A DNA stretch of 64,000 bases, from the NCBI GenBank assembly GCA_021927905.1, contig BLLK01000069.1:1302001-1366000 (forward strand), in the 5' to 3' direction. The notes beneath the pieces are model-generated. The model did not search any database. It was not told where the DNA came from and saw nothing but the letters and a program-made list of their open reading frames with translations. Of this stretch, positions 1 to 60,072 are shown piece after piece. Source of the stretch: Chaetoceros tenuissimus (Eukaryota > Bacillariophyta > Thalassiosirophyceae > Chaetocerotales > Chaetocerotaceae). The position numbers and the translations under genes are program-made. Each line of letters starts with the position of its first letter. Position 1 is the first letter of the stretch.

Positions 1-3000
1 AGTAGCTTTTCAAGGTTGGAATCAAGTAAAGTGATATCAGCTGTTTCCATTGCAAGTGCAGCACCAGCTCCCATCGCTACACCTACATCAGCTAGAGCTA
101 ATGCTGGAGCATCGTTCACTCCATCTCCGACCATTAAGATTAGTCCTGGTCTAACTCCTTTGAAACAGCGTCTTTCGGATACAAGGCTCTTTTCATTTTT
201 CATCATTTCTTCTACAAGATCAAGCTTTTCATGTGGAAGTAGATTGCTCTTGATTTGATTATGCTTCAATCCAACTCCAAGTCCAATCGATGTTGCAGCT
301 TTTGCATTATCACCAGTTAGCATATTGACATCGATTCCTAAATCAGTAAATCTATTAATGACACTCTTTGCTTCACTACGAACGGAATCAGCAACACAGT
401 AGGAGCAGACAATTCCAAATCCTTCTACACTCATGAATCCGACAGTGCTTCCATCATGCAGCCAATCCTGTACGGTGGACATTTCTTCAGCAGGTACATG
501 TTCTGTAAGGTTCAATCTATTGAACAAACGCAAGTTTCCAACATGTACTTCCTTGCCATTGATTTGAGCCTTCACTCCCTCACCCTCCAGATTCTGATGA
601 TTGTCAACCTTCCAATCTTTTGGAATATCCACATTCTCAGCCTTTGCTGCAGAAATCATGGCAGCTGCAAGGGGGTGACTTGCATGTTCTTCCATGGCAT
701 AAATATAACGGAGAGATTCTTCACGACTGAGCCTATTCCAAGTTCTGAGATGTAAGAGCTTAAAGTTGCCTTCTGTAAGAGTTCCTGTCTTGTCGAAGGC
801 AATACGTTTCACTCTACCAAGGGCCTCAAGATGTGCACCTCCCTTAACAACGATTCCTCTTTGAGCAGCTGCAGCTAAACCAGCTACATATGTAACAGGA
901 GTTGAGATGATGAGCGCACAAGGGCAAGCAATGACAATTGTAACAAGACCGATCTTTGTCCATTGTTTTCCAACTTCGTAGTTCACGATCCATGGGAATG
1001 TGCACATGGAAATGGAGAGAAGCACTACAAGCGGGGTGTATCGTTTTGCAAACTCATCAATTAACTTTTCAGTCTCGGAACGATTAGCTTGAGCTTCTTC
1101 CACCAGTCGAATAAGACGTGAAACTGCTGAGTCATCTGCAGTAGATGTAGTTTTGACCAAAAGCTTTGCAAGCCCTGCATTGATAGTACCTCCTGACACC
1201 TCATCCCCTGGCAATTTCTGCACCGGTCGAGATTCTCCAGTCAGTGAAGATTCATCAACTACAGTGGATCCTTCAACTACAACTCCATCGCATGGGATTT
1301 TGTCTCCAGTTCTGACAGACACAATACTCCCAACAGGCACGTCTGACGCAGGAACAAATTTGAATTTTCCACTCTGTGAGTCTTGAACCTGCGCTCTTTC
1401 TGGTCTCAGCCTTACGATTGCAGACAAAGCGTTTCTAGCTCTAGATGTTGATAGTGTTTCCAACCAGTCAGAAATACTAAACAAAAACGTGACAGCAGCA
1501 GCCTCGCTAAACTCTTGTAGAGCCAAAGCACCAATGGTTGCAAAAAGCATCATACAGTTTGTGTCAAATTGTTTACGTCTCATTGTGAGAATCGCCTTTT
1601 GCGCTATCTTTGGAATTCCAAGTGCGACAGAAATAAGTGCGGTGTACTTGAGGTATCCCCAATTGCCTTTAACATCAATGAAATGAAGCATAGACACGAT
1701 CCAGAAAACGCCCGATAACATAACGTTCCATTCTAGTTTTGCTTCGTGTTCTTCAATATCATTGTCAGCTCCTGCACTCCAGATTCCTTCTTCAAACCCA
1801 TCTGTAATAACAGTAGCATTCACCCCTGTGTCATTAAGAAATTCAAGCAACTTTTTGACAGTCAGTAACTTTGGATTGTGATCAAATTTGATTGTTTTGC
1901 TCGGTACATGAACATCAACATGAAATATCTCATCTCTGGAATAATTACTTTCCAAAGTGTGCTTGACCCTGTCTCCGTCATGTGCCTCAAGAATAGATGC
2001 CACAAAAATAGTAGACTCGACGTATTCTGATTTCATTCCTCTCAGTTTGGTATCAGCACCGGCATCATTCTTGATGGTACAATCGAATTTCTTAGAATCC
2101 AGAGCTTCTTTGATTCCAGAAGCCGAAATTGATTGGAATTCATGTACAACATAAACTGTCTTATTTGGAACGTTGATAGTGACCTTTTCAACACCTTTCA
2201 AGGGCTCTAAAATAGAATTGATTGCAGGAATTTCTGCAGAACAGCATATTCCAGCTACAAAAAATGTGGACTTCCCACTTCCCTGAATTGACGCTTTCTT
2301 TTGTGCACCATCTTTCTTCAAAGTTGCTCCAAACTTTTGAGCATTAAGCGCTTCAGTAATTTCATCTGCTGAGATCTTTTTCGGGGAATGTGTAACATGG
2401 ACGAGTTTTGTCGTGGTAACTACAGCAACATTTTCAATGCCTTCAAGAGGATCAAGGATGGATTTGATCATGGGAATTTCTGACGCACAACAGATGGCCT
2501 TTACATGAATTGTAGATCTAACTTCACCTTTTTCAGTGACTGGAGGAGCAATATTCTCATCTTCATTAACATGCTCACAACACGATGACTGAATTACATG
2601 ACCCTGGCTCCGTCTCTTTGGAGAGGGTACACAACAAGAAGGCACATCACATTGACCGGAAGTGTTTTTCAAAGGTACATGATGAGCACACGGAAATGCA
2701 TGACGAATGATACTAGCTCGATCTTCTTCCAGCTCAAAAAACTCTGAAAGCAAATCCAAAATTTTGAGAGGAGATCTTGGTATTTCGTAAAAGTTGAGAG
2801 TAATCTGCCTTTCACTGTCACTTGAACCTTGCACGTAATGAGAAGAGCTCCTCAAAGTACGCTTTGAAACCAAACTTAACTTTCCATGAACATCTCTATC
2901 ACCACAGTCTTCACAATCATGTTCTAATGTCATGTGCCCTGTTCTTTCATTGTGTACAAGTGTATCCATGTGGTCATCATGGCGAATCTTGAATACTTTC

Positions 3001-4316
3001 TTTTGACTTTTAGAGTAGTTGTTTCCACCTACACTCTGTTCAAGTTTTTCTCTATATTCCTTTGAGTTGCAATCACTAGGAAGCCCTTCAGATAGTGGGA
3101 TAGAGTTTGTGGCACTGAGTAATTGTTCCTCTTCATCCACTGGAAAGAAAACTATACCAGCAAGTCTTTCCATTTCTGGCATACTTTTTCCATCTGCGTC
3201 ATCGGTACATGTTTTATTATGATATCTATGCGCATGAAGATGAGGCACATCAATACCACAGAAACAACTCTCCTCTGGCTCACCATGTCTTCCATTCTCG
3301 TCAAAACATGGAGTTAAAAAAGAATCAACATCATGTCCATGAGAAGAGAAGCAAAATTTTGAGTTTGCAGCATCACTCTTGCTGATGGATGCAGACGAAA
3401 ATGTTTTCAATACTCCATCAATATCATATACATCAACTTTACCATCATCGCGCAGAATAGCGATACAATTCGGACTTTCATGGTTCTTTACATCGTGACT
3501 TATATTTGAACTATGCTCAGATGACGCGAATATCATTTTCGCATCTTCATAGCTGTGAGTTTTTCCAGAAGAGCACTTCTTTGATGAGCAGCAGCTATCT
3601 TTCTTTTCTTCTGTATGTTCTTTGTGCGAATCGGAATGACCGTCATGACTGTGATTCTCATTCTCAGTTTTCCCAGAAGAGCATTTCTTTGATGAGCAGC
3701 AGCTATCCTTCTTTTCTTCTGTATGCTCTTTGTGCGAATGGGAATGACCGTCATGACTGTGATTCTCATTCTCAGTTTTCCCAGAAGAGCATTTCTTTGA
3801 TGAGCAGCAGCTATCTTTCTTTTCTTCTGTATGCTCTTTGTGCGAATGGGAATGACCGTCATGACTGTGATTCTCATTCTCAGCTACTTTTCCAGAAGAG
3901 CATTTCTTTGACGAGCAGCAGCTATCCTTCTTTTCTTCTGTATGCTCTTTGTGCGAACGGGAATGATCATGCGAATGACTAGAAGAACAGCTTTTCTTCT
4001 CATCATTTCCCTCTTGACTCGAACAAATCTTATTCTTACTGCTGCAACATGTTTCATTTTCTTCCTTATGATGATGGTTAAATGGTACGCTTTTCTTTGT
4101 AGGTGTGTGCGTATAATGCTTTTGCAAACTAGCCTCCCTTCTCTGTCTTACCAGATCTGTCAAAGATGGGGACTCTACACCATTTTGACTATTCAATAAG
4201 CTTTCTCGTTCTTTCTTATTTGGTGTCGCTACTGTATTCTCTTCTGATTTTTCTAGTAGAAATATGCTCTCTGATTTGGAGCATGTTCCACCTGAACAAC
4301 AGGGTTCTTTTTTCAT
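1..4316 (-). CDS. P1B-type Zn/Cd-transporting ATPase, tandem copy 1 (3' end outside window)
   Basis: This is the left copy of the heavy-metal ATPase described at 6913-11517. Position 1 here corresponds to 7202 there, so about 1438 codons are visible. The last 96 or so codons, including the final membrane segments and the stop, lie beyond the left edge. The start ATG is at 4316-4314; an in-frame upstream TTG is not used here. The visible part keeps the His/Cys repeats, two CCxxE metal-binding domains, the CPC membrane motif, DKTGT and GDGVND, with no frameshift or stop that I can see. Against copy 2 I find only about 16 base changes, all between 546 and 787 and all synonymous in the codons I checked. 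It is therefore probably a functional duplicate, not a pseudogene. Whether the C-terminus is intact cannot be judged from this window. Confidence 0.9.
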   Translation of the reverse strand, partial: MKKEPCCSGGTCSKSESIFLLEKSEENTVATPNKKERESLLNSQNGVESPSLTDLVRQRREASLQKHYTHTPTKKSVPFNHHHKEENETCCSSKNKICSSQEGNDEKKSCSSSHSHDHSRSHKEHTEEKKDSCCSSKKCSSGKVAENENHSHDGHSHSHKEHTEEKKDSCCSSKKCSSGKTENENHSHDGHSHSHKEHTEEKKDSCCSSKKCSSGKTENENHSHDGHSDSHKEHTEEKKDSCCSSKKCSSGKTHSYEDAKMIFASSEHSSNISHDVKNHESPNCIAILRDDGKVDVYDIDGVLKTFSSASISKSDAANSKFCFSSHGHDVDSFLTPCFDENGRHGEPEESCFCGIDVPHLHAHRYHNKTCTDDADGKSMPEMERLAGIVFFPVDEEEQLLSATNSIPLSEGLPSDCNSKEYREKLEQSVGGNNYSKSQKKVFKIRHDDHMDTLVHNERTGHMTLEHDCEDCGDRDVHGKLSLVSKRTLRSSSHYVQGSSDSERQITLNFYEIPRSPLKILDLLSEFFELEEDRASIIRHAFPCAHHVPLKNTSGQCDVPSCCVPSPKRRSQGHVIQSSCCEHVNEDENIAPPVTEKGEVRSTIHVKAICCASEIPMIKSILDPLEGIENVAVVTTTKLVHVTHSPKKISADEITEALNAQKFGATLKKDGAQKKASIQGSGKSTFFVAGICCSAEIPAINSILEPLKGVEKVTINVPNKTVYVVHEFQSISASGIKEALDSKKFDCTIKNDAGADTKLRGMKSEYVESTIFVASILEAHDGDRVKHTLESNYSRDEIFHVDVHVPSKTIKFDHNPKLLTVKKLLEFLNDTGVNATVITDGFEEGIWSAGADNDIEEHEAKLEWNVMLSGVFWIVSMLHFIDVKGNWGYLKYTALISVALGIPKIAQKAILTMRRKQFDTNCMMLFATIGALALQEFSEAAAVTFLFSISDWLETLSTSRARNALSAIVRLRPERAQVQDSQSGKFKFVPASDVPVGSIVSVRTGDKIPCDGVVVEGSTVVDESSLTGESRPVQKLPGDEVSGGTINAGLAKLLVKTTSTADDSAVSRLIRLVEEAQANRSETEKLIDEFAKRYTPLVVLLSISMCTFPWIVNYEVGKQWTKIGLVTIVIACPCALIISTPVTYVAGLAAAAQRGIVVKGGAHLEALGRVKRIAFDKTGTLTEGNFKLLHLRTWNRLSREESLRYIYAMEEHASHPLAAAMISAAKAENVDIPKDWKVDNHQNLEGEGVKAQINGKEVHVGNLRLFNRLNLTEHVPAEEMSTVQDWLHDGSTVGFMSVEGFGIVCSYCVADSVRSEAKSVINRFTDLGIDVNMLTGDNAKAATSIGLGVGLKHNQIKSNLLPHEKLDLVEEMMKNEKSLVSERRCFKGVRPGLILMVGDGVNDAPALALADVGVAMGAGAALAMETADITLLDSNLEKL
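3557..3990 (-). repeat. Coding minisatellite in ATPase copy 1 (His/Cys-rich repeats)
   Basis: Four tandem units of 108 bp (one with an extra 6 bp) encode 36-38 residue repeats rich in His, Cys, Ser, Glu and Lys. Units differ by single bases, for example HSHSHKEH against HSDSHKEH. The same array, with the same unit variants, is present in copy 2 at 10758-11191, so repeat number has not changed since the duplication. Confidence 0.9.
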
Positions 4317-4628
4317 TTTTCTCAATTATCTTTCGTGGTACCTCCTAGTTTTTCCTCAAGAGATTTTTTATAAACAATTACAGTAGGAGCCTATTATTAG
4401 TGATTTTCCCTCTTTCCGTTACCATATAGTAATGCTTCAACAAGAGAGAGACTTTGAATACACTACCAAACCTTTTTGTTGTTGTTTCCTTTAGCTAGTC
4501 TATTGTTTCCAGAAAAATTATTCGATTGAAATACATAGATGGACGATTTTTTGAACTTGAAGCTTGAACTTCACTCATGCAGTACGTAGGAGATCGGAAC
4601 CTATACAATACTACTCTAACAATATAGG
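4317..4628 (-). promoter_or_regulatory. Upstream region of ATPase copy 1
   Basis: About 310 bp between the ATG of copy 1 and the terminal repeat of the foldback element. It is identical to 11518-11829 in front of copy 2, so both copies should share their proximal promoter. I see no recognised metal-response motif. The foldback element sits directly at its outer edge. Confidence 0.5.
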
Positions 4629-6792
4629 CAGGCAAATTATATGGTGATTTTGACACGTCACGGACACATGTCACCACTCACACCTCTTCCTTCTCTCTCA
4701 CTTCCCTCGTTTTTTTCCAAATTCCATTAGAGTGTCCCTCCTGCTCTTTTTAAATTAATTTTAGCCGTTGAGGATAGATGCAAGCGCAAGGAAAAACGAT
4801 GTGATGCGAAGAAAAACAAAAGTCCCCTCTTCCACACAAAACTGATTCATCTATCTAATCCTAATATATGGTATGTGTGTGTTTATTTTCTTTTCCTTAT
4901 CAAGCACTCATTTCACTTCTAAAGTATTTTTCACAGTTTTCTTTGTAAAAGGATGGGCTGAGATATATGAGTTAGGGTATGGCATAGTTTGAACAGCAGT
5001 TTCTGGTTCATGTGTTACTCGTAGTATCTATTTACTAGCCCTTTTTGCAATTAAGAGGAAAAATTGTATCGCAGTTTCTACTTCTTAATAGTATTAACAA
5101 GGATCGACACAAATATGGTACCTGCGAGACATATGATTTAATCCTCTTTTGTTCACAAGAATTGGTATTTTATCTCAGCTGTGTCAAGTTGTCTTTACAG
5201 TAGTGGTTGCATTCAAGTTGCTGTTCCTTTTCTAATTTTTGATCTTATTGATCATCAATGGTTATTACATCTACTTCAATGGTGTTGATCATTAATGGTG
5301 AAGATATACATGGCATCTGTGGTTGACTAAAAGCCCAAGTGGATATGAAATGCGTGAGATGATGAAGCTGTTGATTCGTGAGTTGATGAAGAAAGAGACT
5401 GATAAACGCATTTTCCTTTGATAAATCAAATATATTTCTTTCTTGTAAAATAGCAATGCTTTTATGCATCTTTTCAAATCTATTTATGATATCAAATTGT
5501 AAGATTGCATTATAATTGTCAGATTATCACTTCCCTTACGTAGCCATTCAATTTTGTTATGTTTTTGTAGTCAACTGCAATCGTTTGATTATCATACTCA
5601 ACCTTCTGATTATCAAAGATTGTGTATTGATAATCAAACTAAAAGCTCTGATTAGCAAGGATTGGGCACTGATTATCGATGAACAAATGACTGTTGTCAA
5701 AATTGGCTAAATTTTTAAGAATCAGATGGAAAGGCTTGATAATCGAAATCAGACTTCTGATTATCAAACAAATGTGTTTGAATATCATCGCTTTGAATCT
5801 GATTACCAAACAAATATGTTTGAATATCGTTGCTTTGAATCTAATTATCAAGTCACGTTTATCTTACAACACTTTGCAATGTTTTCCCACGTTTTATTAC
5901 AAAAACCATGATAATCAAGCGACAAGTTTAATCTTTCAGCATTCAAGTTTTTTGGTTTAACTATCAATTGATTTTATTCTTTACTTAAAATTGCTATAGT
6001 CTGGTTCTCTTAATAATTAATGTGGTGGCTATCAATGCATACGACTTTCTAGAAGTCCAGTCTCCCCTTTTCTTCCTTCTTGTGGTCTACATATGTTTAT
6101 GATAACTCAGCAGCTCTATGTTTTAACATAATCCATTATCATCCTCTTCCTTGTTTCAAAAATTCAATTGGATTCAATTCCTGGTCTCTACCTCCAAGAG
6201 ATACATTGCGAGTAGACATTGGCTTTCTAATGAACCATTCAACAGAAACACTACACCGCATATCTACCTATCTTGATTCTGTCTATGAGAAACCGAGAGA
6301 TCTTCACCATTGTTCCGTTTCGTTGCGTGAAGGTCTTGTAACTAACACATGAACCTGAGAGAGCTTCACCTTTGCAATTCCCTTTCGTTGTGTTGTCACA
6401 TGAACCAGAAACTGCTGTTCAAACTATGCCATACCCTACCCTTTTTTCTTATTCCATCCGGATACTTAAAAACAAAACTGCAACAAAAGGCAAAAAGCGT
6501 GCTTGATTAAGAAAAGATATCAGACAAACTTACCAAAATAGGAGTTTAGATACCTAGAGATGAATCAGTTTTGTGTGGAAGAGGAGCAAGGAGACACATG
6601 TTCGTTTTTTTGTTTGGATCGCAAGATCGCAAGCACCAACGGCAGAAATTCAAATTACGAGTATTTTTGAAAAAGAGCAGGAGGGACACTCTAATGGATT
6701 TTGGAAAAAAACGAGGGAAGTGAGAGAGGAGGAAGAGGTGTGAGTGGTGACATGTGTCCGTGACGTGTCAAAATCACCATAAAATTTGCCTG
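4629..6792. mobile_element. Foldback-type non-autonomous element A with ~390 bp terminal inverted repeats
   Basis: The left end (4629 to about 5013, starting CAGGCAAATTATATGGTG) is repeated in inverted orientation at the right end (about 6408-6792, ending AATTTGCCTG). The repeat arms share long blocks, including the segment with CACGTCACGGACACATGTCA at the tip and GGTATGGCATAGTTTGAACA near the inner end. The interior is AT-rich and has no reading frame resembling a transposase, so the element would depend on proteins in trans. No clear target-site duplication is visible. That is expected if the element is a recombination chimera: its right flank (6793-6912) differs from that of element B. Confidence 0.8.
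5580..5860. repeat. Array of TGATTATCAAAC-like motifs inside element A
   Basis: The motif TGATTATCA and close variants (TGATTACCAAAC, TTGATAATC, TAATTATCAAG) recur about every 20-45 bp, in both orientations. The best pair is a roughly 42 bp unit around 5757 and 5799 (CTGATTATCAAACAAATGTG and CTGATTACCAAACAAATATG). The matching array in element B is at about 12771-13050. Such arrays can be transposase-binding sites; that reading is inference. Confidence 0.6.
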
Positions 6793-6912: not shown

Positions 6913-9900
6913 TTAAGTCTCTTCTTGAGCAAGTCTGACAGGAAACATGCTTTCTTCATCTCCATTTCTTACCGCATTACTGTCAAATCCAGATCCCGCC
7001 TTGACGCTCTTCTTGGATGGTAGGAGCTTCATTCCATTAGCTGTTACTATTAACATCGCCCCAACATCGGATCCAATTGCGGCCCAAAGACTGCTGTATC
7101 CAGCAAAGGTGAAGCCCATAACTACTGCTTTTGCAACTAGACTAAATGTCACGTTCTCAATAATGGTGCGAGTAACAGCTTTTCCAAGCTTCACTACCTT
7201 GAGTAGCTTTTCAAGGTTGGAATCAAGTAAAGTGATATCAGCTGTTTCCATTGCAAGTGCAGCACCAGCTCCCATCGCTACACCTACATCAGCTAGAGCT
7301 AATGCTGGAGCATCGTTCACTCCATCTCCGACCATTAAGATTAGTCCTGGTCTAACTCCTTTGAAACAGCGTCTTTCGGATACAAGGCTCTTTTCATTTT
7401 TCATCATTTCTTCTACAAGATCAAGCTTTTCATGTGGAAGTAGATTGCTCTTGATTTGATTATGCTTCAATCCAACTCCAAGTCCAATCGATGTTGCAGC
7501 TTTTGCATTATCACCAGTTAGCATATTGACATCGATTCCTAAATCAGTAAATCTATTAATGACACTCTTTGCTTCACTACGAACGGAATCAGCAACACAG
7601 TAGGAGCAGACAATTCCAAATCCTTCTACACTCATGAATCCGACAGTGCTTCCATCATGCAGCCAATCCTGTACGGTGGACATTTCTTCAGCAGGTACAT
7701 GTTCTGTAAGGTTCAATCTATTGAACAAACGCAAGTTTCCAACATGCACTTCTTTGCCATTGATTTGAGCCTTCACTCCCTCACCCTCTAGATTCTGATG
7801 ATTGTCAACCTTCCAATCTTTTGGAATATCCACATTCTCAGCCTTTGCTGCAGATATCATGGCAGCTGCAAGAGGGTGACTTGCATGCTCTTCCATAGCA
7901 TAAATATATCTGAGAGATTCCTCGCGGCTGAGCCTGTTCCAAGTTCTGAGATGTAAGAGCTTAAAGTTGCCCTCTGTTAGAGTTCCCGTCTTGTCGAAGG
8001 CAATACGTTTCACTCTACCAAGGGCCTCAAGATGTGCACCTCCCTTAACAACGATTCCTCTTTGAGCAGCTGCAGCTAAACCAGCTACATATGTAACAGG
8101 AGTTGAGATGATGAGCGCACAAGGGCAAGCAATGACAATTGTAACAAGACCGATCTTTGTCCATTGTTTTCCAACTTCGTAGTTCACGATCCATGGGAAT
8201 GTGCACATGGAAATGGAGAGAAGCACTACAAGCGGGGTGTATCGTTTTGCAAACTCATCAATTAACTTTTCAGTCTCGGAACGATTAGCTTGAGCTTCTT
8301 CCACCAGTCGAATAAGACGTGAAACTGCTGAGTCATCTGCAGTAGATGTAGTTTTGACCAAAAGCTTTGCAAGCCCTGCATTGATAGTACCTCCTGACAC
8401 CTCATCCCCTGGCAATTTCTGCACCGGTCGAGATTCTCCAGTCAGTGAAGATTCATCAACTACAGTGGATCCTTCAACTACAACTCCATCGCATGGGATT
8501 TTGTCTCCAGTTCTGACAGACACAATACTCCCAACAGGCACGTCTGACGCAGGAACAAATTTGAATTTTCCACTCTGTGAGTCTTGAACCTGCGCTCTTT
8601 CTGGTCTCAGCCTTACGATTGCAGACAAAGCGTTTCTAGCTCTAGATGTTGATAGTGTTTCCAACCAGTCAGAAATACTAAACAAAAACGTGACAGCAGC
8701 AGCCTCGCTAAACTCTTGTAGAGCCAAAGCACCAATGGTTGCAAAAAGCATCATACAGTTTGTGTCAAATTGTTTACGTCTCATTGTGAGAATCGCCTTT
8801 TGCGCTATCTTTGGAATTCCAAGTGCGACAGAAATAAGTGCGGTGTACTTGAGGTATCCCCAATTGCCTTTAACATCAATGAAATGAAGCATAGACACGA
8901 TCCAGAAAACGCCCGATAACATAACGTTCCATTCTAGTTTTGCTTCGTGTTCTTCAATATCATTGTCAGCTCCTGCACTCCAGATTCCTTCTTCAAACCC
9001 ATCTGTAATAACAGTAGCATTCACCCCTGTGTCATTAAGAAATTCAAGCAACTTTTTGACAGTCAGTAACTTTGGATTGTGATCAAATTTGATTGTTTTG
9101 CTCGGTACATGAACATCAACATGAAATATCTCATCTCTGGAATAATTACTTTCCAAAGTGTGCTTGACCCTGTCTCCGTCATGTGCCTCAAGAATAGATG
9201 CCACAAAAATAGTAGACTCGACGTATTCTGATTTCATTCCTCTCAGTTTGGTATCAGCACCGGCATCATTCTTGATGGTACAATCGAATTTCTTAGAATC
9301 CAGAGCTTCTTTGATTCCAGAAGCCGAAATTGATTGGAATTCATGTACAACATAAACTGTCTTATTTGGAACGTTGATAGTGACCTTTTCAACACCTTTC
9401 AAGGGCTCTAAAATAGAATTGATTGCAGGAATTTCTGCAGAACAGCATATTCCAGCTACAAAAAATGTGGACTTCCCACTTCCCTGAATTGACGCTTTCT
9501 TTTGTGCACCATCTTTCTTCAAAGTTGCTCCAAACTTTTGAGCATTAAGCGCTTCAGTAATTTCATCTGCTGAGATCTTTTTCGGGGAATGTGTAACATG
9601 GACGAGTTTTGTCGTGGTAACTACAGCAACATTTTCAATGCCTTCAAGAGGATCAAGGATGGATTTGATCATGGGAATTTCTGACGCACAACAGATGGCC
9701 TTTACATGAATTGTAGATCTAACTTCACCTTTTTCAGTGACTGGAGGAGCAATATTCTCATCTTCATTAACATGCTCACAACACGATGACTGAATTACAT
9801 GACCCTGGCTCCGTCTCTTTGGAGAGGGTACACAACAAGAAGGCACATCACATTGACCGGAAGTGTTTTTCAAAGGTACATGATGAGCACACGGAAATGC

Positions 9901-11517
9901 ATGACGAATGATACTAGCTCGATCTTCTTCCAGCTCAAAAAACTCTGAAAGCAAATCCAAAATTTTGAGAGGAGATCTTGGTATTTCGTAAAAGTTGAGA
10001 GTAATCTGCCTTTCACTGTCACTTGAACCTTGCACGTAATGAGAAGAGCTCCTCAAAGTACGCTTTGAAACCAAACTTAACTTTCCATGAACATCTCTAT
10101 CACCACAGTCTTCACAATCATGTTCTAATGTCATGTGCCCTGTTCTTTCATTGTGTACAAGTGTATCCATGTGGTCATCATGGCGAATCTTGAATACTTT
10201 CTTTTGACTTTTAGAGTAGTTGTTTCCACCTACACTCTGTTCAAGTTTTTCTCTATATTCCTTTGAGTTGCAATCACTAGGAAGCCCTTCAGATAGTGGG
10301 ATAGAGTTTGTGGCACTGAGTAATTGTTCCTCTTCATCCACTGGAAAGAAAACTATACCAGCAAGTCTTTCCATTTCTGGCATACTTTTTCCATCTGCGT
10401 CATCGGTACATGTTTTATTATGATATCTATGCGCATGAAGATGAGGCACATCAATACCACAGAAACAACTCTCCTCTGGCTCACCATGTCTTCCATTCTC
10501 GTCAAAACATGGAGTTAAAAAAGAATCAACATCATGTCCATGAGAAGAGAAGCAAAATTTTGAGTTTGCAGCATCACTCTTGCTGATGGATGCAGACGAA
10601 AATGTTTTCAATACTCCATCAATATCATATACATCAACTTTACCATCATCGCGCAGAATAGCGATACAATTCGGACTTTCATGGTTCTTTACATCGTGAC
10701 TTATATTTGAACTATGCTCAGATGACGCGAATATCATTTTCGCATCTTCATAGCTGTGAGTTTTTCCAGAAGAGCACTTCTTTGATGAGCAGCAGCTATC
10801 TTTCTTTTCTTCTGTATGTTCTTTGTGCGAATCGGAATGACCGTCATGACTGTGATTCTCATTCTCAGTTTTCCCAGAAGAGCATTTCTTTGATGAGCAG
10901 CAGCTATCCTTCTTTTCTTCTGTATGCTCTTTGTGCGAATGGGAATGACCGTCATGACTGTGATTCTCATTCTCAGTTTTCCCAGAAGAGCATTTCTTTG
11001 ATGAGCAGCAGCTATCTTTCTTTTCTTCTGTATGCTCTTTGTGCGAATGGGAATGACCGTCATGACTGTGATTCTCATTCTCAGCTACTTTTCCAGAAGA
11101 GCATTTCTTTGACGAGCAGCAGCTATCCTTCTTTTCTTCTGTATGCTCTTTGTGCGAACGGGAATGATCATGCGAATGACTAGAAGAACAGCTTTTCTTC
11201 TCATCATTTCCCTCTTGACTCGAACAAATCTTATTCTTACTGCTGCAACATGTTTCATTTTCTTCCTTATGATGATGGTTAAATGGTACGCTTTTCTTTG
11301 TAGGTGTGTGCGTATAATGCTTTTGCAAACTAGCCTCCCTTCTCTGTCTTACCAGATCTGTCAAAGATGGGGACTCTACACCATTTTGACTATTCAATAA
11401 GCTTTCTCGTTCTTTCTTATTTGGTGTCGCTACTGTATTCTCTTCTGATTTTTCTAGTAGAAATATGCTCTCTGATTTGGAGCATGTTCCACCTGAACAA
11501 CAGGGTTCTTTTTTCAT
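6913..11517 (-). CDS. P1B-type Zn/Cd-transporting ATPase, tandem copy 2 (complete)
   Basis: A single-exon gene of 1534 residues for a heavy-metal P-type ATPase, most like the Zn/Cd (P1B-2, plant HMA2/HMA4) branch. The N-terminus is unusually long. A His/Cys-rich region (about residues 70-260) holds four 36-38 residue repeats with CCSSKKCSSGK and HSHDGHSHSHKEH. Two ferredoxin-like metal-binding domains follow near residues 600 and 690, with AICCASE and GICCSAE (the CCxxE signature of Zn/Cd pumps). A third similar fold near 770 has lost its cysteines. The core shows TGES, CPC near residue 1131 (IACPCALIIS), DKTGT near 1174, the HP motif (SHPLAAAM), GDGVND near 1397 and a DVGAM motif in the last membrane segment. 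The expected role is ATP-driven export or sequestration of Zn2+/Cd2+; Co2+ or Pb2+ are possible. The ATG at 11517 is chosen because the upstream extension has only a TTG. Confidence 0.95.
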   Translation of the reverse strand: MKKEPCCSGGTCSKSESIFLLEKSEENTVATPNKKERESLLNSQNGVESPSLTDLVRQRREASLQKHYTHTPTKKSVPFNHHHKEENETCCSSKNKICSSQEGNDEKKSCSSSHSHDHSRSHKEHTEEKKDSCCSSKKCSSGKVAENENHSHDGHSHSHKEHTEEKKDSCCSSKKCSSGKTENENHSHDGHSHSHKEHTEEKKDSCCSSKKCSSGKTENENHSHDGHSDSHKEHTEEKKDSCCSSKKCSSGKTHSYEDAKMIFASSEHSSNISHDVKNHESPNCIAILRDDGKVDVYDIDGVLKTFSSASISKSDAANSKFCFSSHGHDVDSFLTPCFDENGRHGEPEESCFCGIDVPHLHAHRYHNKTCTDDADGKSMPEMERLAGIVFFPVDEEEQLLSATNSIPLSEGLPSDCNSKEYREKLEQSVGGNNYSKSQKKVFKIRHDDHMDTLVHNERTGHMTLEHDCEDCGDRDVHGKLSLVSKRTLRSSSHYVQGSSDSERQITLNFYEIPRSPLKILDLLSEFFELEEDRASIIRHAFPCAHHVPLKNTSGQCDVPSCCVPSPKRRSQGHVIQSSCCEHVNEDENIAPPVTEKGEVRSTIHVKAICCASEIPMIKSILDPLEGIENVAVVTTTKLVHVTHSPKKISADEITEALNAQKFGATLKKDGAQKKASIQGSGKSTFFVAGICCSAEIPAINSILEPLKGVEKVTINVPNKTVYVVHEFQSISASGIKEALDSKKFDCTIKNDAGADTKLRGMKSEYVESTIFVASILEAHDGDRVKHTLESNYSRDEIFHVDVHVPSKTIKFDHNPKLLTVKKLLEFLNDTGVNATVITDGFEEGIWSAGADNDIEEHEAKLEWNVMLSGVFWIVSMLHFIDVKGNWGYLKYTALISVALGIPKIAQKAILTMRRKQFDTNCMMLFATIGALALQEFSEAAAVTFLFSISDWLETLSTSRARNALSAIVRLRPERAQVQDSQSGKFKFVPASDVPVGSIVSVRTGDKIPCDGVVVEGSTVVDESSLTGESRPVQKLPGDEVSGGTINAGLAKLLVKTTSTADDSAVSRLIRLVEEAQANRSETEKLIDEFAKRYTPLVVLLSISMCTFPWIVNYEVGKQWTKIGLVTIVIACPCALIISTPVTYVAGLAAAAQRGIVVKGGAHLEALGRVKRIAFDKTGTLTEGNFKLLHLRTWNRLSREESLRYIYAMEEHASHPLAAAMISAAKAENVDIPKDWKVDNHQNLEGEGVKAQINGKEVHVGNLRLFNRLNLTEHVPAEEMSTVQDWLHDGSTVGFMSVEGFGIVCSYCVADSVRSEAKSVINRFTDLGIDVNMLTGDNAKAATSIGLGVGLKHNQIKSNLLPHEKLDLVEEMMKNEKSLVSERRCFKGVRPGLILMVGDGVNDAPALALADVGVAMGAGAALAMETADITLLDSNLEKLLKVVKLGKAVTRTIIENVTFSLVAKAVVMGFTFAGYSSLWAAIGSDVGAMLIVTANGMKLLPSKKSVKAGSGFDSNAVRNGDEESMFPVRLAQEET
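10758..11191 (-). repeat. Coding minisatellite in ATPase copy 2 (His/Cys-rich repeats)
   Basis: The same four-unit array as at 3557-3990. The spacing of Cys pairs (CCSSKKCSS) and His clusters suggests a cytosolic metal-buffering or sensing tail. That role is inferred from composition. Confidence 0.9.
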
Positions 11518-11829
11518 TTTTCTCAATTATCTTTCGTGGTACCTCCTAGTTTTTCCTCAAGAGATTTTTTATAAACAATTACAGTAGGAGCCTATTATTA
11601 GTGATTTTCCCTCTTTCCGTTACCATATAGTAATGCTTCAACAAGAGAGAGACTTTGAATACACTACCAAACCTTTTTGTTGTTGTTTCCTTTAGCTAGT
11701 CTATTGTTTCCAGAAAAATTATTCGATTGAAATACATAGATGGACGATTTTTTGAACTTGAAGCTTGAACTTCACTCATGCAGTACGTAGGAGATCGGAA
11801 CCTATACAATACTACTCTAACAATATAGG
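11518..11829 (-). promoter_or_regulatory. Upstream region of ATPase copy 2
   Basis: Identical duplicate of 4317-4628, between the ATPase start and foldback element B. No coding potential is apparent. Confidence 0.5.
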
Positions 11830-13907
11830 CAGGCAAATTATATGGTGATTTTGACACGTCACGGACACATGTCACCACCCACTCCTCTTCCTCCTCTCTC
11901 ACTTCACTCGTTTTTTTCCAAAATCCATTAGAGTGTCCCTCCTGCTCTTTTTCAAATTATAGCCGTTGATAGATGCAAGGAAAAACGACAATGATGCGAA
12001 GAAAAACAAAAGTCCTCTTCCACACAAAACTGATTCATCTATCTAATCCTACGTTAGGTTTGTGTGTGTATATTTTCTTTTCCTTATCAAGCACTCATTT
12101 CACTTCTAAAGTATTTTTCACAGTTTTCTTTGTAAAAGGATGGGCTGAGATATATGAGTAGGGTATGGCATAGTTTGAACAGCAGTTTCTGGTTCATGTG
12201 TTACTCGTAGTATCTATTTACTAGCCCTTTTTGCAATTAAGAGGAATTGTATCGCAGTTTCTACTTCTTAATAGTATTATAACAAGGATCGACACAAATA
12301 TGGTACCTGTGAGACATATAATTTAATCCTCTTTTGTTCACAAGAATTGGAGCTGTGTCAAGTTGTCTTTACAGTAGTGGTTGCATTCAAGTTGCTATTC
12401 CTTTTCTAGTTTTTGATCTTATTGATCATCAATGGTTATTACATCTACTTCAATGGTGTTGATCATTAATGGTGAAGATATACATGGCATCTGTGGTTGA
12501 CTAAAAGCCCAAGTGGATATAACAACTACGTGAAATGCGTGAGATGATGAAGCTTTTGATTTGTGAGTTGATGAAGAAAGAGACTGATAAACGCATTTGC
12601 CTTTATAAATCAAATATATTTCTTTCTTGTAAAATAGCAATGCTTTTATGCATCTTTTCAAATCCATTTATGATATCAAATTGTAAGATTACATTATAAT
12701 TGTCAAAAGATAATCACTTCCCCTACGTATCCATTCAATTTTGTTATGTTTTGGTAGTCAACGGCAATCGTTTGATTATCATACTCAACCTTATGATTAT
12801 CAAACATTGTGTATTGATAATCAAACTAAAAGCTCTGATTAGCAAGGATTGGGCACTGATTATCGATGAACAATTACTGTTGTCAAAATTGGCTAAATTT
12901 TTAAGAATCAGATGGAAAGGCTTGATATTCGAAATCAGACTTCTGATTATCAAACCAATATATCTCAATATCATCGCTTTGAATCTGATTACCAAACGAA
13001 TATGTTTGAATATTGTTGCTTTGAATCTAATTATCAAGTCACGTTTATCTGACAACACTTTGCAATGTTTTCCCACGTTTTATTACAAAAACCATGATAA
13101 TCAAGTTTAATCTTTCAGCATTCAAGTTTTTTGGTTTAACTATCAATTGATTTTATTCTTTACTTAAAATTGCGATAGTCTGGTTCTCTTAATAATTAAT
13201 GTGGTGGATATCAATGCATAGACTTTCCAGAAGTCCAGTTTCCCCTTTTCTTCCTTCTTGTGGTCTACATATGTTCTTACTTGTTTCAAAATTTCAATTT
13301 GGATTCAATTCCTGGTCTCTACCTCCAAGAGATACATTGCGAGTAGACATTGGCTTGGCTTTCTAATGAACCATTCAACAGAAACACTACAGCGGATATC
13401 TACTTGATCTTGATTCTGTCTATGAGAAACCAAGAGAGCTTCACCATTGTTCCGTTTCGTTGCATGAAGGTCTTGTAACTAACACATGAACCTGAGAGAG
13501 CTTCACCTTTGCAATTCCCTTTCGTTGTGTTGTCACATGAACTGGAAATGGTCATTCAAATTATGCCATACCCTACCCTTCTTTCTTATTCCATCCGGAT
13601 ACTTAAAAAAACTGCAACAAAAGGCAAAAAGCGTGCTTGATATAGAAAAGATAGCAGACAAACTTACCAAAGTAGGAATATAGATAGATGAATCATCAGT
13701 TTTGTGTGGAAGAGGAGCAAGGATGACACATATTCGTTGTTTTGTTTCCTCCAAAAGCACCAACGGCAGAAATTCAAATTTTTGAAAAAGAGCAGGAGGG
13801 ACACTCTAATGGATTTTGGAAAAAAACGAGGGAAGTGAGAGAGGAGGAAGAGGAGTGGGTGGTGACATGTGTCCGTGACGTGTCAAAATCACCATATAAT
13901 TTGCCTG
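11830..13907. mobile_element. Foldback-type non-autonomous element B
   Basis: The second copy of the element at 4629-6792, in the same orientation. It differs from A by roughly one base in ten plus small indels after the first 49 bp. Both terminal inverted repeats are present (outer tips CAGGCAAATT and AATTTGCCTG). The flank after 13907 has no similarity to the flank after 6792. No transposase-like frame and no obvious target-site duplication are seen. Confidence 0.8.
12771..13050. repeat. Array of TGATTATCAAAC-like motifs inside element B
   Basis: Counterpart of 5580-5860, with the same motif order and spacing but many point differences between the copies. Confidence 0.6.
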
Positions 13908-54461: not shown

Positions 54462-56711
54462 ATGATTAGAAACACTGGCTCTTCCAACTCAAAAGATTTC
54501 CTACAAAATGAAATACGGTTTTCTACCTTGTGTAGGGAAGCGACACAAAGTTTTGAGGCTTCTTTCATTATCCCCGTGTTAAAGCAAGAGCTCTCGCTTA
54601 CCACCGGAACTTGTTCAGATGGCATCAGATCGTCGCCTACGCGAAATTTTGATGAAGGTGCATATGCCTTCACAGGACCCGTCTCCCTGATCAGCCTCTA
54701 TGTTGACAAGGATACCAACAAAAGTGCTCTCTCTCTTTGTCACAACTCCTACTCATATAGGATTACGCAGGCCACTCACTCATTCAATCTTGGTTCGCAA
54801 AGAGCTCATGAATCTGATTACAAATCTGCGAGAAGACTTTTTCATGATGCCCTCTCAACGCTTCAAGGTATTGACCTCACGTTCCTCGACAGCTTTCCCC
54901 CCTACAAATGCAGCAAGAAGAATACTACTATCCAAGAACAAATATTTGCAAGTTTGAATATTTTATTGTCGCTGACATTGCTGAATGTTGGGCATGTAGA
55001 GTGGAACCTCTCCAAATATGAGAGAAGTATTTTCTTCTACAACTTATGCTTAGAATCTCTCAAGTCACTAGACATGTCACTCCGTAGAGACTCCTCATGC
55101 AGAGAATATCTTACGGATTGTCGAAGCATCATGGCAGCATGTCTAAATTGCATTGGCATGTTCTATATTAAAACCAGATTGACTACCTTGATAGAAACTG
55201 AAGCTAGTGAGAAGGACATTCAAGCACAAGCGATTCAGTGTCTCGGGTACCTGGAAAAATCTCTTTCTATTCATAAGGACATGGAGTTACACGATGAACT
55301 CACTGCCTCATTCTTGAGAGCTAACATGGCCACAGTCTTGAATAATATCGGGAGAGTTTACTGCGCCATTGGAAACTTTACACAAGCTTTCTCATGCCAT
55401 CACTTGTGTCTCGAGAAGAGACTAAAGTCTTTGGATCATAAGGACATGGATGTGGGTGTTGCATACTTCAACTCAGCTGAATCATTGCGTGCGCTAGGAT
55501 ACGAAACAAAGGCACTTCACAACTACCTTGCTTTTCTATCAATACTCATACCAATTGTTGGATATGCAGATGACAATGTTGTCAAGACTGTTCTCATCGT
55601 TTCTGATCTTTACGTCAGCTTAGACCAATCCTCCGAAGCAGAAAGCTTGATTCAAGAATGTTTATCATCTCTTGATTTTGAGAAAGACGAAAATCTTCCG
55701 TCAAAGATAAGACTGCTGAACACTTTAGGCGACGTTCTCATTGAACAAGATAAGGAAAGTGATGCCCTCGATGCCTTGCTCGATGCTCGTGACTTATTTT
55801 CTATATCGACGGATAACGTCTCCCTCACAAAGAACTATGTCAAGAACTCATGTAGTATTGCCAAGATACTCGTCGAAAGAAGGGAGTTCGAAGAAGCATT
55901 GACATTTTATTTGAAAGCATTGCAGAAAGCAATGGCATTCAAAGAGGGTCATTGTGGATCAGCATTTAAGAGCATATGCTGCGAGCTTCACCTTCAAATT
56001 GCCAATATCTACGATCAAATTAACGATTTCAAAGCAGCTAGTTTTCATCTCCGTCAACTTATTGCGTTGAAAGCTGATATGGGAGATGATGACTACCAAC
56101 TATCTACCACTCTGAATCTTCTTGGTCTTACGTACTACAAAGCAAACGAATACACCTCAGCATTGTCTGCATTCATCAAATGCGCAACCATTCGTACGAA
56201 AAGCAATGCCTCAAAGAGTGAAATCATTGCGGTATTGTACAACATCGCCACTGTTTACAAGTCCATAGGCAAGAGTGACAAAGCACTTGAAATATACATC
56301 GAACTCCTTGAGTATGAGCGTGAGCTTTTACACAGTGAGGAAGGAGTTGCACCTCATCCACCTAAAGATTTTATTCTTACTTTACGCCAAATTTTCGAAA
56401 TTTATGACCAAGATCTAGGCAAAACAGAGGAAGGGCTGAAATATCTCCTTGAAGCAGTGGATACATGCAAAGTCTACAAAGATTATGTCGAAGACTCTCT
56501 GGGTCTGGGTATGTTCCGCTTAGCTGGTGATACTTTATCTTCGTTGAATCATAGCTCGGAAGCATTCTCATTTTACTGCGAGGGATTTGAGCTTTTTGGC
56601 AATATCGATGAAAACGTCATTGCATCATTTGGGGAAAGAGGCATCCATCTTTTACTTGCACAAGCATGTAATGATGACAGCACTTTTCCTAAACATGCGG
56701 CGGCAGCATGA
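54462..56711 (+). CDS. TPR-repeat protein, kinesin-light-chain-like
   Basis: 749 residues, no introns, with the ATG at 54462 (the upstream open frame starts with TTG). From about residue 105 onward it is a solenoid of tetratricopeptide repeats with the KLC-like 42-residue spacing. Examples are NNIGRVYCAIGNFTQAFSCH, LNLLGLTYYKANEYTSALSA and LYNIATVYKSIGKSDKALEI. The N-terminal 100 residues lack a known fold and have no targeting signal. Diatoms carry many such proteins of unknown role; protein binding is inferred. By eye its codons use C at the third position more often than its neighbours. Confidence 0.82.
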   Translation: MIRNTGSSNSKDFLQNEIRFSTLCREATQSFEASFIIPVLKQELSLTTGTCSDGIRSSPTRNFDEGAYAFTGPVSLISLYVDKDTNKSALSLCHNSYSYRITQATHSFNLGSQRAHESDYKSARRLFHDALSTLQGIDLTFLDSFPPYKCSKKNTTIQEQIFASLNILLSLTLLNVGHVEWNLSKYERSIFFYNLCLESLKSLDMSLRRDSSCREYLTDCRSIMAACLNCIGMFYIKTRLTTLIETEASEKDIQAQAIQCLGYLEKSLSIHKDMELHDELTASFLRANMATVLNNIGRVYCAIGNFTQAFSCHHLCLEKRLKSLDHKDMDVGVAYFNSAESLRALGYETKALHNYLAFLSILIPIVGYADDNVVKTVLIVSDLYVSLDQSSEAESLIQECLSSLDFEKDENLPSKIRLLNTLGDVLIEQDKESDALDALLDARDLFSISTDNVSLTKNYVKNSCSIAKILVERREFEEALTFYLKALQKAMAFKEGHCGSAFKSICCELHLQIANIYDQINDFKAASFHLRQLIALKADMGDDDYQLSTTLNLLGLTYYKANEYTSALSAFIKCATIRTKSNASKSEIIAVLYNIATVYKSIGKSDKALEIYIELLEYERELLHSEEGVAPHPPKDFILTLRQIFEIYDQDLGKTEEGLKYLLEAVDTCKVYKDYVEDSLGLGMFRLAGDTLSSLNHSSEAFSFYCEGFELFGNIDENVIASFGERGIHLLLAQACNDDSTFPKHAAAA

Positions 56712-56913
56712 ATAAGAAGTTTTACAAACTCACAATATGTACCAATAACTTTTAGTAATCCAATGTAATATTAATTTCATTTTAATTTTAACTTCATTTT
56801 TTATTCACTTATTGATTAGTTGCGTCTATTGGAATTAATAGAACCCATGTATTCAAATATCGTACCTCCGGTTCAATTATCTACAAAACTGCTGGTTTCT
56901 GTAGGTGAATTGA

Positions 56914-56984
56914 ATCGGAAAATATGCTCAGTTTACATTGAAGTCACAATTATTGTGTGATGGCAATGTAAACATCATTCCGTA
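56914..56984 (-). promoter_or_regulatory. Candidate SECIS-like hairpin in the 3' UTR of the 57066-57368 gene
   Basis: Read on the minus strand: a short stem (CGGA with TCCG), then ATGAT, a perfect 10-bp stem (GTTTACATTG with CAATGTAAAC), an internal CCA/CTT loop, a 5-bp cap stem (TCACA with TGTGA), and TGAG after the long stem. ATGA opposite TGA at the base of a 10-13 bp stem, with AA or CC near the apex, is the layout of a eukaryotic form II SECIS. It lies about 85-150 nt after the TAA. Confidence 0.4.
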
Positions 56985-57065
56985 TGTTGATCACATCGTT
57001 CTAATTTTCAATATCCAACTTTCATTCCAACCATCTTTTTAATATTCCATGTACGTAGGAAAAAG

Positions 57066-57368
57066 TTACTTTCCTTCGTCCTTTTTTCCAGAATCAGGAG
57101 CTTTTTCTTCTTCTTCTTTGTCTCTCTTTAGTTCAAAAGCATTCCATACTCCGGTGCCTTTGACTTCATCAGTTTGTCCAGCAGCATACATGAGCGTATC
57201 AAACGCAGTCTTGATGGATCAGTAAATTACCATAGTTGGAGCTGCCTCAAGTTGGGTGGAAGTAGAAATTTGTTTATTGACAAAAGATGGGGAATTTGTT
57301 GGAACAAATGCCGAGGTAGATGCTGCTCCAATGATAATAGCTGCTGATACAGGTGCAATCTTTACCAT
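57066..57368 (-). CDS. Small plastid-targeted protein with one in-frame TGA: selenoprotein candidate or pseudogene
   Basis: The frame opens at ATG 57368 with MVKIAPVSAAIIIGAASTSA then FVPTNSP, a textbook ASAFAP-type plastid signal. After 49 codons comes TGA (57221-57219). The same frame then runs 50 more sense codons to TAA (57068-57066): SIKTAFDTLMYAAGQTDEVK, GTGVWNAFELKRD, then an acidic/basic tail. Total length would be 100 residues. Both halves look coding, and no GT-AG intron of credible length removes the TGA in frame. TGA could be read as selenocysteine (a SECIS-like hairpin lies downstream), or it could be a TGG (Trp) codon mutated to stop, or a sequencing error. The protein has no Cys, which is unusual for a redox selenoprotein. 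Function unknown. Confidence 0.6.
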
Positions 57369-57596
57369 AGTAGACTTTGTAGGTATTTATGTTTGATAAC
57401 CAAACGAAAATGAGAATAGAGAGTAATTAGCAAATTGAAGAAGAAAGCTTTTGCAAAGCACAACAACAACAAGCTCACTTCTTCTCTTCTTCATTGTCTC
57501 CGGGTGCGCTTATGCATCAGCAAAAATGACGCAAGTCCATGTTGACGTATGTACTTGGATCCAGTAGTAAAGAAACAATGCTGGAGCAGTGGGTCT

Positions 57597-58133
57597 ACGC
57601 GCGAAGAAAAGTGACTAGCGTTGAAAAGTGACTAGCAGCCCTTTACGCGGGAAATCACACACAAACTGGAAAGAAGTCCCATTTTATATACACCTCAATT
57701 AGACCTCAACGTATCTCAACATACAAAAATTTCAAATAAACTACTGTTGCAGAAGTCTTGTAAATACATTCAAGAAGTATATTAGCCACTGGAACGGTCA
57801 TCATAGCACGTTTATTACACTACTAACCCATATGGAAATAAACCTTTTTTTGTGGACTTTTCTACGTGAGTTTCTCGTACTTACACATACCAGAAAATAC
57901 ATTAATTCAAGCGTCTATAGTGCTCGTAATATAAAAAATTTGATCATTGTTCTCGTGCAAAATATGTTTATATATACATATAGGAGATAGATGTGTTATG
58001 GATTTATGTTTCTAGAGATTTTTTTTCAAAAATTTACATGGTGATTCTCTCCAGTTTGACCATTGTCCGTTTGTGGTGTACTAGCTTCCACATAATAAAA
58101 GAAAAAAGTGATTAATCACTTTTCAACGCGCGT
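57597..58133. mobile_element. Mutator-like MITE with 9-bp target-site duplication
   Basis: A 537 bp element. The left end ACGCGCGAAGAAAAGTGACTA (57597-57617) is matched in inverted form at 58113-58133, with three mismatches in 21 bases. It is flanked on both sides by the direct repeat AGTGGGTCT (57588-57596 and 58134-58142). A 9-bp duplication is typical of Mutator-like elements. The interior is AT-rich without a transposase frame. Near the right end is a perfect palindrome, AAAAGTGATTAATCACTTTT, and near the left end GAAAAGTGACTAGC is doubled. It lies between the small plastid gene and the ABC1 kinase gene, ending 89 bp before the latter's ATG. Confidence 0.85.
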
Positions 58134-58222
58134 AGTGGGTCTCGAAGTTGAGAATGCAGCCTTAGTTTTTAGTTCATACTTGTATTTCTTTTAATATCAA
58201 ATCCCACTTCTATTCCAACACC

Positions 58223-60072
58223 ATGAGACTTTCGAGCAAAGCCCTATCTTTGGCTTTTCTATGTGGAGTGGGATATTCAGGTGCTTTTGCACCAACTAAC
58301 CCTCACAGGATCATTTCATCATCATCTATACTAGCGTCCACTGTATCCGAAGATGAAGCAGCTGGTTCTACATTGGAATTTCCACCTCCTTTGACAAAAG
58401 TACAGAGATTGCAAAGAGCTGCCAAATTTTGGAGTTCAGCTATCCCAATTGTCATGTCATACTATTCAAAAAGTGCAGAATTACAAGTAAAGGAAGCATT
58501 CACAGGAGTAAAGCTATCTGAAGCAGAAGAAGAATTGATTTGGAACGAGCAGCATTCGAAGGGTGCGACGAAATTAGCAGATACAATCACATCGCTCAAG
58601 GGATTTTATGTAAAGACTGCACAAATCATTGCATCGAGAAGAGATCTCTTTCCACCAGAATATACAGAGGCTTTGTCAGATTTTACAGATAATGTTGATC
58701 CTTTACCAGTTGCATTGATGAAAGCAGTTGTTGAGAAGGAGTTATTAGTACGTGGAGAAGTTTTTGAAGATATCTTTGCTGAATTTGATGAAAAGCCGTT
58801 GGGTGCGGCGAGTGTAGCTCAAGTCCATAGAGCTAAACTTACAGAAAAGTATGGATCCAAAGAAGTAGCAGTCAAGATTCAACGTCCATCCATTGAGTCG
58901 AAGTTGATGGGTGATATCGCCAATCTTAAGGCACTAGCAAAGACTTTTAGAGAGAATGATGCTTTGCCACTTGATTATTACACTGTATTTAGTGAATTGG
59001 AGTCACAGCTTCAAGACGAATTTGACTTTGTTGCAGAAGCCGTTGCAATGGATAGAATATATGATTGCGTCACCAAAGATGAGAATGGACTTCCATGTGA
59101 AGCTCCTATTGTTTTACCAAGACCTGTTCCAGGTTTGGTGAGTAAGAGAGTGTTGGTAATGGATTATTTGGATGGAGTTCCGTTGTCTAGAGCAGCAGAA
59201 GAAATGCTAAAGAAAGGTATTAGTCCTGACTCCCCAGAGTCACAATTGTTTGGAAGAAAACTTTTGCGGAGCTTGACTGACGTATTCGGGCGTTGCATCC
59301 TAGAAACTGGATTCTTTCACGCAGAGTAAGTGATTTTTGGTATAATATTCTTGCTTTTGTACTTTTTTATGCCATGATCACTGATAAATGACTTTCCAGT
59401 CCACATCCTGGAAATATCTTTGTCCTGAAAGATGGATCCATCGGGTTAATTGATTTTGGTCAGGTTAAGCAAATCAGTGGAAGGGCGAGGGAGACATTGG
59501 CAAAGGTGATGATCGCATTAGATGAAAGACAAAGTGACGAAAACCCTGAAGACCTCGACAAAATTGGAAATTTAGCTTTGGAACTTGGTGTTGAGCTGAC
59601 TGAAGACTGTAAACAGGAAGCACCAGCTGCAGTAGCAATGTGGCTTTTTGATGGAAGCGTAGAGACTTTACCAGGAGGTTATGATAAAGGAGAACTATCT
59701 CCTAACTCACCAGTAAAAGCGCTTCAATCTTTTCCACAAGACTTGGTGCTAGTCGGACGCAGTAGTATTCTTATCAAGGGGTTGTCTAATCGTTTGGGAA
59801 TTCCATGGAGTCTATCAAAGGAATGGGCACCAACAGCTCGAAGAGTATTAGAGGGGAATTCTAAGAGATCATCGGCGAGTGATGATGGGAAGATCACTGA
59901 TGAGAATAGAGTCAGAATTAGAGATGTTATAAAGTTATTAAAGGTATGGGGTAAGAGTAAGGCCTCGAGGGCAGTTACCAAACTTCCACCTTCAATGAGA
60001 ACGAGAGTTGCAGCTGTTGCGCTGAAATTACAAAAAAGAAAAGAGGCTAAAGAAGCAAAGCTGAAACAATAA
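58223..60072 (+). CDS. ABC1/ADCK-type atypical kinase, plastid-targeted
   Basis: Exons 58223-59325 and 59400-60072 (74 bp intron), 591 residues. The signal peptide (SLAFLCGVGYS) is followed by GAFAPTNP, a plastid-import site. Kinase features of the ABC1K family: GFYVKTAQIIASRRDLFPP in the place of the KxGQ motif (here KTAQ), the Ala-rich nucleotide loop PLGAASVAQVHRAKL, VAVKIQRP, DEFDFVAEA for the ExD motif, FHADPHPGNIFV (across the intron) and LIDFGQVKQ. The C-terminal 200 residues are helical and basic. Plastid ABC1Ks regulate prenyl-lipid metabolism such as plastoquinone and tocopherol in plastoglobules. That role is inferred from the family. Confidence 0.9.

Follow-up and report, generated by a model that had tools for sequence, protein, structure and literature searches.

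Does a single in-frame TGA in a short diatom gene end translation, or is it read as selenocysteine (Sec)? This question is raised by a small open frame in a 64,000-nt stretch of Chaetoceros tenuissimus DNA, referred to here as the window. The initial annotation of this DNA had proposed a possible plastid-targeted selenoprotein. We searched the 3′ untranslated region (UTR) for a SECIS element and the genome for Sec machinery; a predicted SECIS and parts of the machinery were found, which supports that proposal. We consider it very probable that the gene encodes a small, nuclear-encoded selenoprotein that is sent to the plastid, with the UGA at codon 50 recoded to Sec through the 3′ SECIS.

A split reading frame on the minus strand

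The frame occupies positions 57066 to 57368 of the minus strand, with its ATG at 57368 and its TAA at 57068 to 57066. The initial annotation had placed it exactly, leaving the strand unstated; the plus strand over 57066 to 57368 encodes no such protein. Read on the minus strand, the layout is the one described there, with 49 sense codons, the TGA, 50 further sense codons, and then TAA. The frame contains one TGA (codon 50, positions 57219 to 57221, minus strand). With this codon read as the proposed Sec, the product is a 100-residue protein, MVKIAPVSAAIIIGAASTSAFVPTNSPSFVNKQISTSTQLEAAPTMVIY-U-SIKTAFDTLMYAAGQTDEVKGTGVWNAFELKRDKEEEEKAPDSGKKDEGK. The lack of cysteine that had been pointed out is real, with no Cys anywhere in the 100-residue translation. 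The gene is single copy, with itself as the sole match in a search of its own 41-Mb genome.

An open frame split by a TGA is not rare and would mean little alone. Of 220 ATG frames in the window (at least 40 codons, ending in a stop, on either strand), 4 ended in TGA and continued for at least 45 further open codons, mostly outside long open reading frames (ORFs), and the candidate is one of these 4. We scored the coding character of each half by codon, with 25 ORFs from the window (250 amino acids or longer) as the training set. The post-TGA half (residues 51 to 100, positions 57069 to 57218, minus strand) is strongly coding-like, at 0.325 bits per codon. This value exceeds 97% of 1,154 coding windows taken from the score's own training ORFs; among 5,522 open, overlapping windows of 50 codons that lie outside long ORFs, 1.2% score at least as high. 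The other two frames across this half score below 0, and the pre-TGA half scores 0.139. Thus, coding sequence was found on both sides of the in-frame UGA, and the earlier remark that the second half is unlike random 3′ UTR is borne out by a codon score above chance among open windows.

Read by eye, residues 1 to 20 (positions 57309 to 57368, minus strand) are the putative signal-peptide part of a bipartite plastid presequence of the diatom type. Diatom signal-plus-transit presequences follow a motif rule, and the first 25 residues of the candidate resemble such a presequence by eye. From the motif, cleavage would be expected before F21, between ASTSA and FVPTN. The plus-strand neighbor at 58223 starts with a similar motif, GAFAPTN. 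An AF2 model of the protein was poor (mean pLDDT, 52.9), with one weak helix predicted at residues 45 to 64, around the Sec, and this model was rejected as a structure search query for its quality.

A hairpin downstream of the stop codon

The 3′ region of the gene covers 354 nt of the minus strand (56712 to 57065), from the TAA to the stop codon of a convergent plus-strand gene. The hairpin at 56978 to 56927 in this region is a type II SECIS with the rarer CC form. It reads AUGAU-GUUUACAUUG-CC-AUCACACAAUAAUUGUGACUU-CAAUGUAAAC-UGAG and folds into an AUGA/UGA quartet, a mismatch-free helix II of 10 bp, a CC internal loop, and a 5-bp ministem with its loop. On the minus strand, the core (56927 to 56978) carries the AUGAU quartet at 56978 to 56974 and the 3′ UGAG quartet at 56930 to 56927. 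Helix II pairs 56973 to 56964 with 56940 to 56931, and the apical internal-loop CC lies at 56963 to 56962. The element starts 90 nt after the TAA (start to start), on the same strand and downstream of the stop, and there is no other long minus-strand ORF at this site among the ORFs listed. The initial annotation had named the lack of a SECIS as half of what would speak against a selenoprotein; that half is overturned by a SECIS lying 3′ of the gene. In the available text of a 2010 sea squirt paper, CC-type SECIS elements are called rare and had until then been known from mammalian selenoprotein M (PMC2874816).

The published SECIS rule, as given in the available text of its source, is NTGA, 10 to 13 nt, AA or CC, 15 to 39 nt, and GA, with a folding energy of −12.6 kcal/mol or lower (PMC2375036). 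The candidate has spacings of 11 nt and 32 nt, and its energies are −14.0 kcal/mol for the core and −20.0 kcal/mol for a 76-nt stretch, compared to the threshold of −12.6. This 76-nt stretch (56915 to 56990, minus strand) gave a folding z score of −4.17, with none of 200 shuffles as good, while a wider 101-nt stretch gave a z score of −3.13, with 2 of 200 shuffles as good. When up to two helix mismatches were allowed, 18 places in the window passed the rule (4 on the plus strand and 14 on the minus strand). Only the candidate has no mismatch, with four places having one and 13 having two, and its core energy is the lowest of the 18 (−14.0, with the next at −10.6).

Dinucleotide shuffles of the 354-nt region (n = 100,000) produced 135 mismatch-free patterns, 2 of which also reached −14.0; this figure is somewhat optimistic, as the hairpin was spotted before the scanners existed, although the rule applied is the published one. 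No place reached −10 in 87,188 bases of other loci from the same genome (both strands counted), a set that omits six control loci and the two loci holding the window gene. With a looser scanner, the candidate topped the window with a score of 29, followed by 22, and 15 places including the candidate scored at least 16 in 128,000 bases (the window on both strands). The 3′ region had one match in the genome, itself, implying that the hairpin is unlike a repeat or mobile element. An Rfam scan of 56500 to 57600 with E values up to 10 reported no SECIS. It returned 13 weak matches, all under their gathering scores and none of them a SECIS, which we took as noise.

Selenocysteine decoding and control genes in the same genome

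The genome decodes Sec, having parts of the machinery and at least ten genes of Sec type. Matches to tRNA-Sec exceed the Rfam cutoff at five places, on C27, C34, and C54, and the two that were checked have the anticodon TCA. SepSecS is present (E value, 5.6e-113), as are matches to the fourth domain of eEFSec. Ten genes carry an in-frame TGA at the expected Sec site: SelT (L007), three GPx genes (L010, L011, and L012), SelM (L014), two MsrA genes (L021 and L023), and three SelU-like genes (L024, L025, and L026), the last three with the TGA just ahead of the profile match. We take these genes to be of Sec type from the motifs CTSU (SelT), NVASxU (GPx), CSGU (SelM), and GUFW (MsrA) and from their likeness to SelU. 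An MsrA gene with one TGA (L020) was dropped as a control, as its TGA is apparently intronic. Four of the five tRNA-Sec matches score about 70 to 75 bits.

A SECIS-like hairpin was the top match of its own locus in 8 of the 10 Sec-type genes (L007, L010, L011, L012, L014, L021, L023, and L025); no convincing SECIS was found within the loci of the SelU-like genes L024 and L026, which have their TGA at the expected site. For the seven controls with a resolved frame, the hairpins lie 61, 74, 56, 49, 68, 52, and 91 nt from the start of the stop codon (L012 is omitted from this count for its unresolved exon structure). The candidate, at 90 nt, falls within this range of 49 to 91 nt. Control hairpins other than those passing the strict rule come from the looser scanner, on which the eight score 16 to 32. 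From about 0.007 chance matches per 60-nt target, we infer that the seven hairpins in the 49- to 91-nt band are not due to chance.

All eight control hairpins begin with ATGAC and the candidate begins with ATGAT; the agreement of the controls in ATGA is partly built in, since the looser scanner gives a higher score to an A ahead of TGA. When the strict AA/CC rule was applied, two of six control loci (L012 and L014) had a match at the SECIS position, and the L014 SelM hairpin has CC in its apical loop like the candidate. Several control hairpins are weak, with the best folds of L010 and L023 departing from canonical pairing, and several have no obvious AA or CC at the expected place. The candidate is therefore nearer the textbook element than most of the controls. 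In a MAFFT alignment of the eight control hairpins, the 5′ arms did not align. The AUGAC start in all eight, with several lacking AA/CC, suggests that selenoproteins of this lineage may escape standard SECIS filters.

The candidate shares with SelT, SelM, GPx, MsrA, and SelU-like genes of this genome an in-frame UGA and a SECIS-like hairpin after the stop. Unlike them, it has no family match and no Cys, and hence no UxxC or CxxU motif, and its quartet is AUGAU rather than the AUGAC of their hairpins. The Sec-type MsrA gene L023 (C33:736000-738200) resembles it in being a nuclear gene with a presequence-like N terminus (plastid-like, AHAFVSQ) and a Sec codon, but L023 belongs to a known enzyme family whose active site holds the Sec, whereas the candidate matches no family. 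Given the N terminus of L023, plastid selenoproteins may extend beyond the window gene. SelK and SelS are small selenoproteins of the endoplasmic reticulum (ER) membrane with Sec near the C terminus, outside a redox-partner motif. By description, the candidate is like them in being short with its Sec outside a known enzyme fold, and it differs in that theirs is an ER membrane setting and a C-terminal Sec.

Family profiles gave no significant match (best E values of 0.06 in Pfam and 0.071 in NCBIfam and none in PHROGs), and so the candidate was placed in no known selenoprotein family from these collections. No relative was found in its own genome, viral contigs, or GTDB contigs. The contig scans were seeded by exact 8-residue stretches and detect close relatives only, and these results say little about other diatoms. 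In the PDB, we found no homologue, with one match (E value, 2.2) confined to the presequence; this may argue weakly against a photosystem subunit of resolved structure. Algal selenoprotein families in the available text of PMC7539508 include MSP, Hypo, SymSEP, and PDI_e, some of them from few lineages. By the descriptions there, the candidate is unlike SymSEP, which has a Trx-like domain, and PDI_e, which has a GUGUU motif; MSP and Hypo are set apart by text rather than by sequence, with nothing in their descriptions matching the candidate. The portions available of the literature on diatom, algal, and plastid selenoproteins (including PMC7539508, PMC2375036, and PMC5139114) describe no such family, and an entry in an algal selenoprotein database is possible. 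In the portion of the literature listing 16 Thalassiosira pseudonana selenoproteins, the candidate is absent by name.

Alternative readings and a proposed product

Splicing could remove the TGA, and we regard this as unlikely. The best-fitting intron is 21 nt (GTAATTTACTGATCCATCAAG). It starts with GTAAT, ends with AAG, and contains CTGAT as a possible branch point. Its length is divisible by 3, so that its removal would leave an in-frame, Sec-free protein of 93 residues, the longest product among 140 GT-AG removals (15 nt or longer, covering the TGA, with the acceptor in the 3′ region). However, the spliceosome would have little space in an intron of 21 nt, and the one neighboring intron measured (GT-AG, from the sequence) is 74 nt. 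Two variants using the same acceptor, of 72 nt (donor GTCAATAA; 76 residues) and 96 nt (donor GTTCCAAC; 68 residues), are of ordinary intron length and retain the second half, but their donors lack GTA or GTG and some of the presequence region would be lost with them. By eye, the acceptor common to all three forms has no pyrimidine tract. Among the best-ranked removals, the 12 of 40 to 250 nt with GTA or GTG donors leave most of the second half missing or shifted. The earlier claim that an intron here would need to be far shorter than others stands insofar as the sole GT-AG removal seen to keep both halves nearly whole is the 21-nt one; it does not cover the 72- and 96-nt removals with unusual donors, which retain the second half but shorten the first. 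No intron form explains the SECIS.

The same element bears on a pseudogene or sequence error, in which a TGG or other codon became TGA and truncated the protein. Tryptophan would fit the context, the gene is single copy, and there is no homologue for comparison. Yet this account, which we hold to be very unlikely, predicts no SECIS, whereas a high-quality one lies at the usual distance, and the frame is intact apart from the TGA, with strong codon bias. We see scant probability that the SECIS is real and the frame has changed, either in a decaying former selenoprotein or with the SECIS serving a different, unseen exon structure. The missing family match and Cys partner would suit such a history, but the frame is open with coding character on both sides of the TGA, and the ATG, presequence, UGA, stop, and SECIS follow in the right order. 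A chance meeting of a 49-codon presequence ORF with an open frame and a hairpin that are both random is extremely improbable; such split frames do occur in the window, four with the candidate included, but this coincidence must contend with a SECIS equaled by 2 in 100,000 shuffles together with a codon bias that 1.2% of open windows lying outside long ORFs attain. Several points weigh against Sec itself. There is no homologue, and hence no indication that the codon is under selection; a Cys partner and a known family are likewise missing. The hairpin starts with AUGAU, it had no Rfam match, several of the control hairpins are weak, and the AF2 model is poor. We counted in favor of Sec that the product without recoding would be almost only presequence.

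On the selenoprotein reading, translation in the cytosol would proceed with the type II SECIS in the 3′ UTR recruiting SECIS-binding protein and eEFSec with Sec-tRNA(UCA), so that UGA codon 50 is read as Sec and translation runs on to the UAA. Import would follow, with presequence removal probably around residue 41, leaving a mature protein of about 59 residues with Sec near its N terminus, perhaps within a helix. Because the protein has no Cys, we propose a lone selenol that may react with peroxides or disulfides and be resolved by a thiol from outside the protein, e.g., glutathione or thioredoxin; alternatively, the Sec may serve to link the protein to a partner through a mixed bond. Our guess for its function is plastid redox. 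The full-length protein would depend on selenium.

We conclude that the product is new, a single-copy protein with a plastid-import-like N terminus and no Cys, forming a new family of a known kind. We lean toward an undescribed, lineage-restricted family of small plastid selenoproteins with a single Sec near the mature N terminus, without Cys, and with an existence tied to selenium supply. Diatoms can need selenium. If our reading is true, the selenoproteome gains a protein without Cys or known family, and there is a direct, testable link from selenium supply to the plastid. Gene callers stop at UGA, which makes lineage-specific selenoproteins hard to detect, and standard calling would report the candidate as a 49-residue presequence or miss it.

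Two features of the surrounding sequence were also observed. A MITE-like inverted-repeat pair (57595 to 58135) lies immediately upstream of the gene, within the shared promoter region of the divergent genes, and has 23-nt arms that are 87% complementary and 495 nt apart; inner arms at 57662 to 57682 and 58038 to 58058 are 81% complementary. In addition, the window contains a direct duplication (1 to 4774 and 7202 to 11975) that is 99.2% identical at an offset of 7,201 bases, with the second copy overlapping a 1,534-amino-acid minus-strand ORF at 6913 to 11517.
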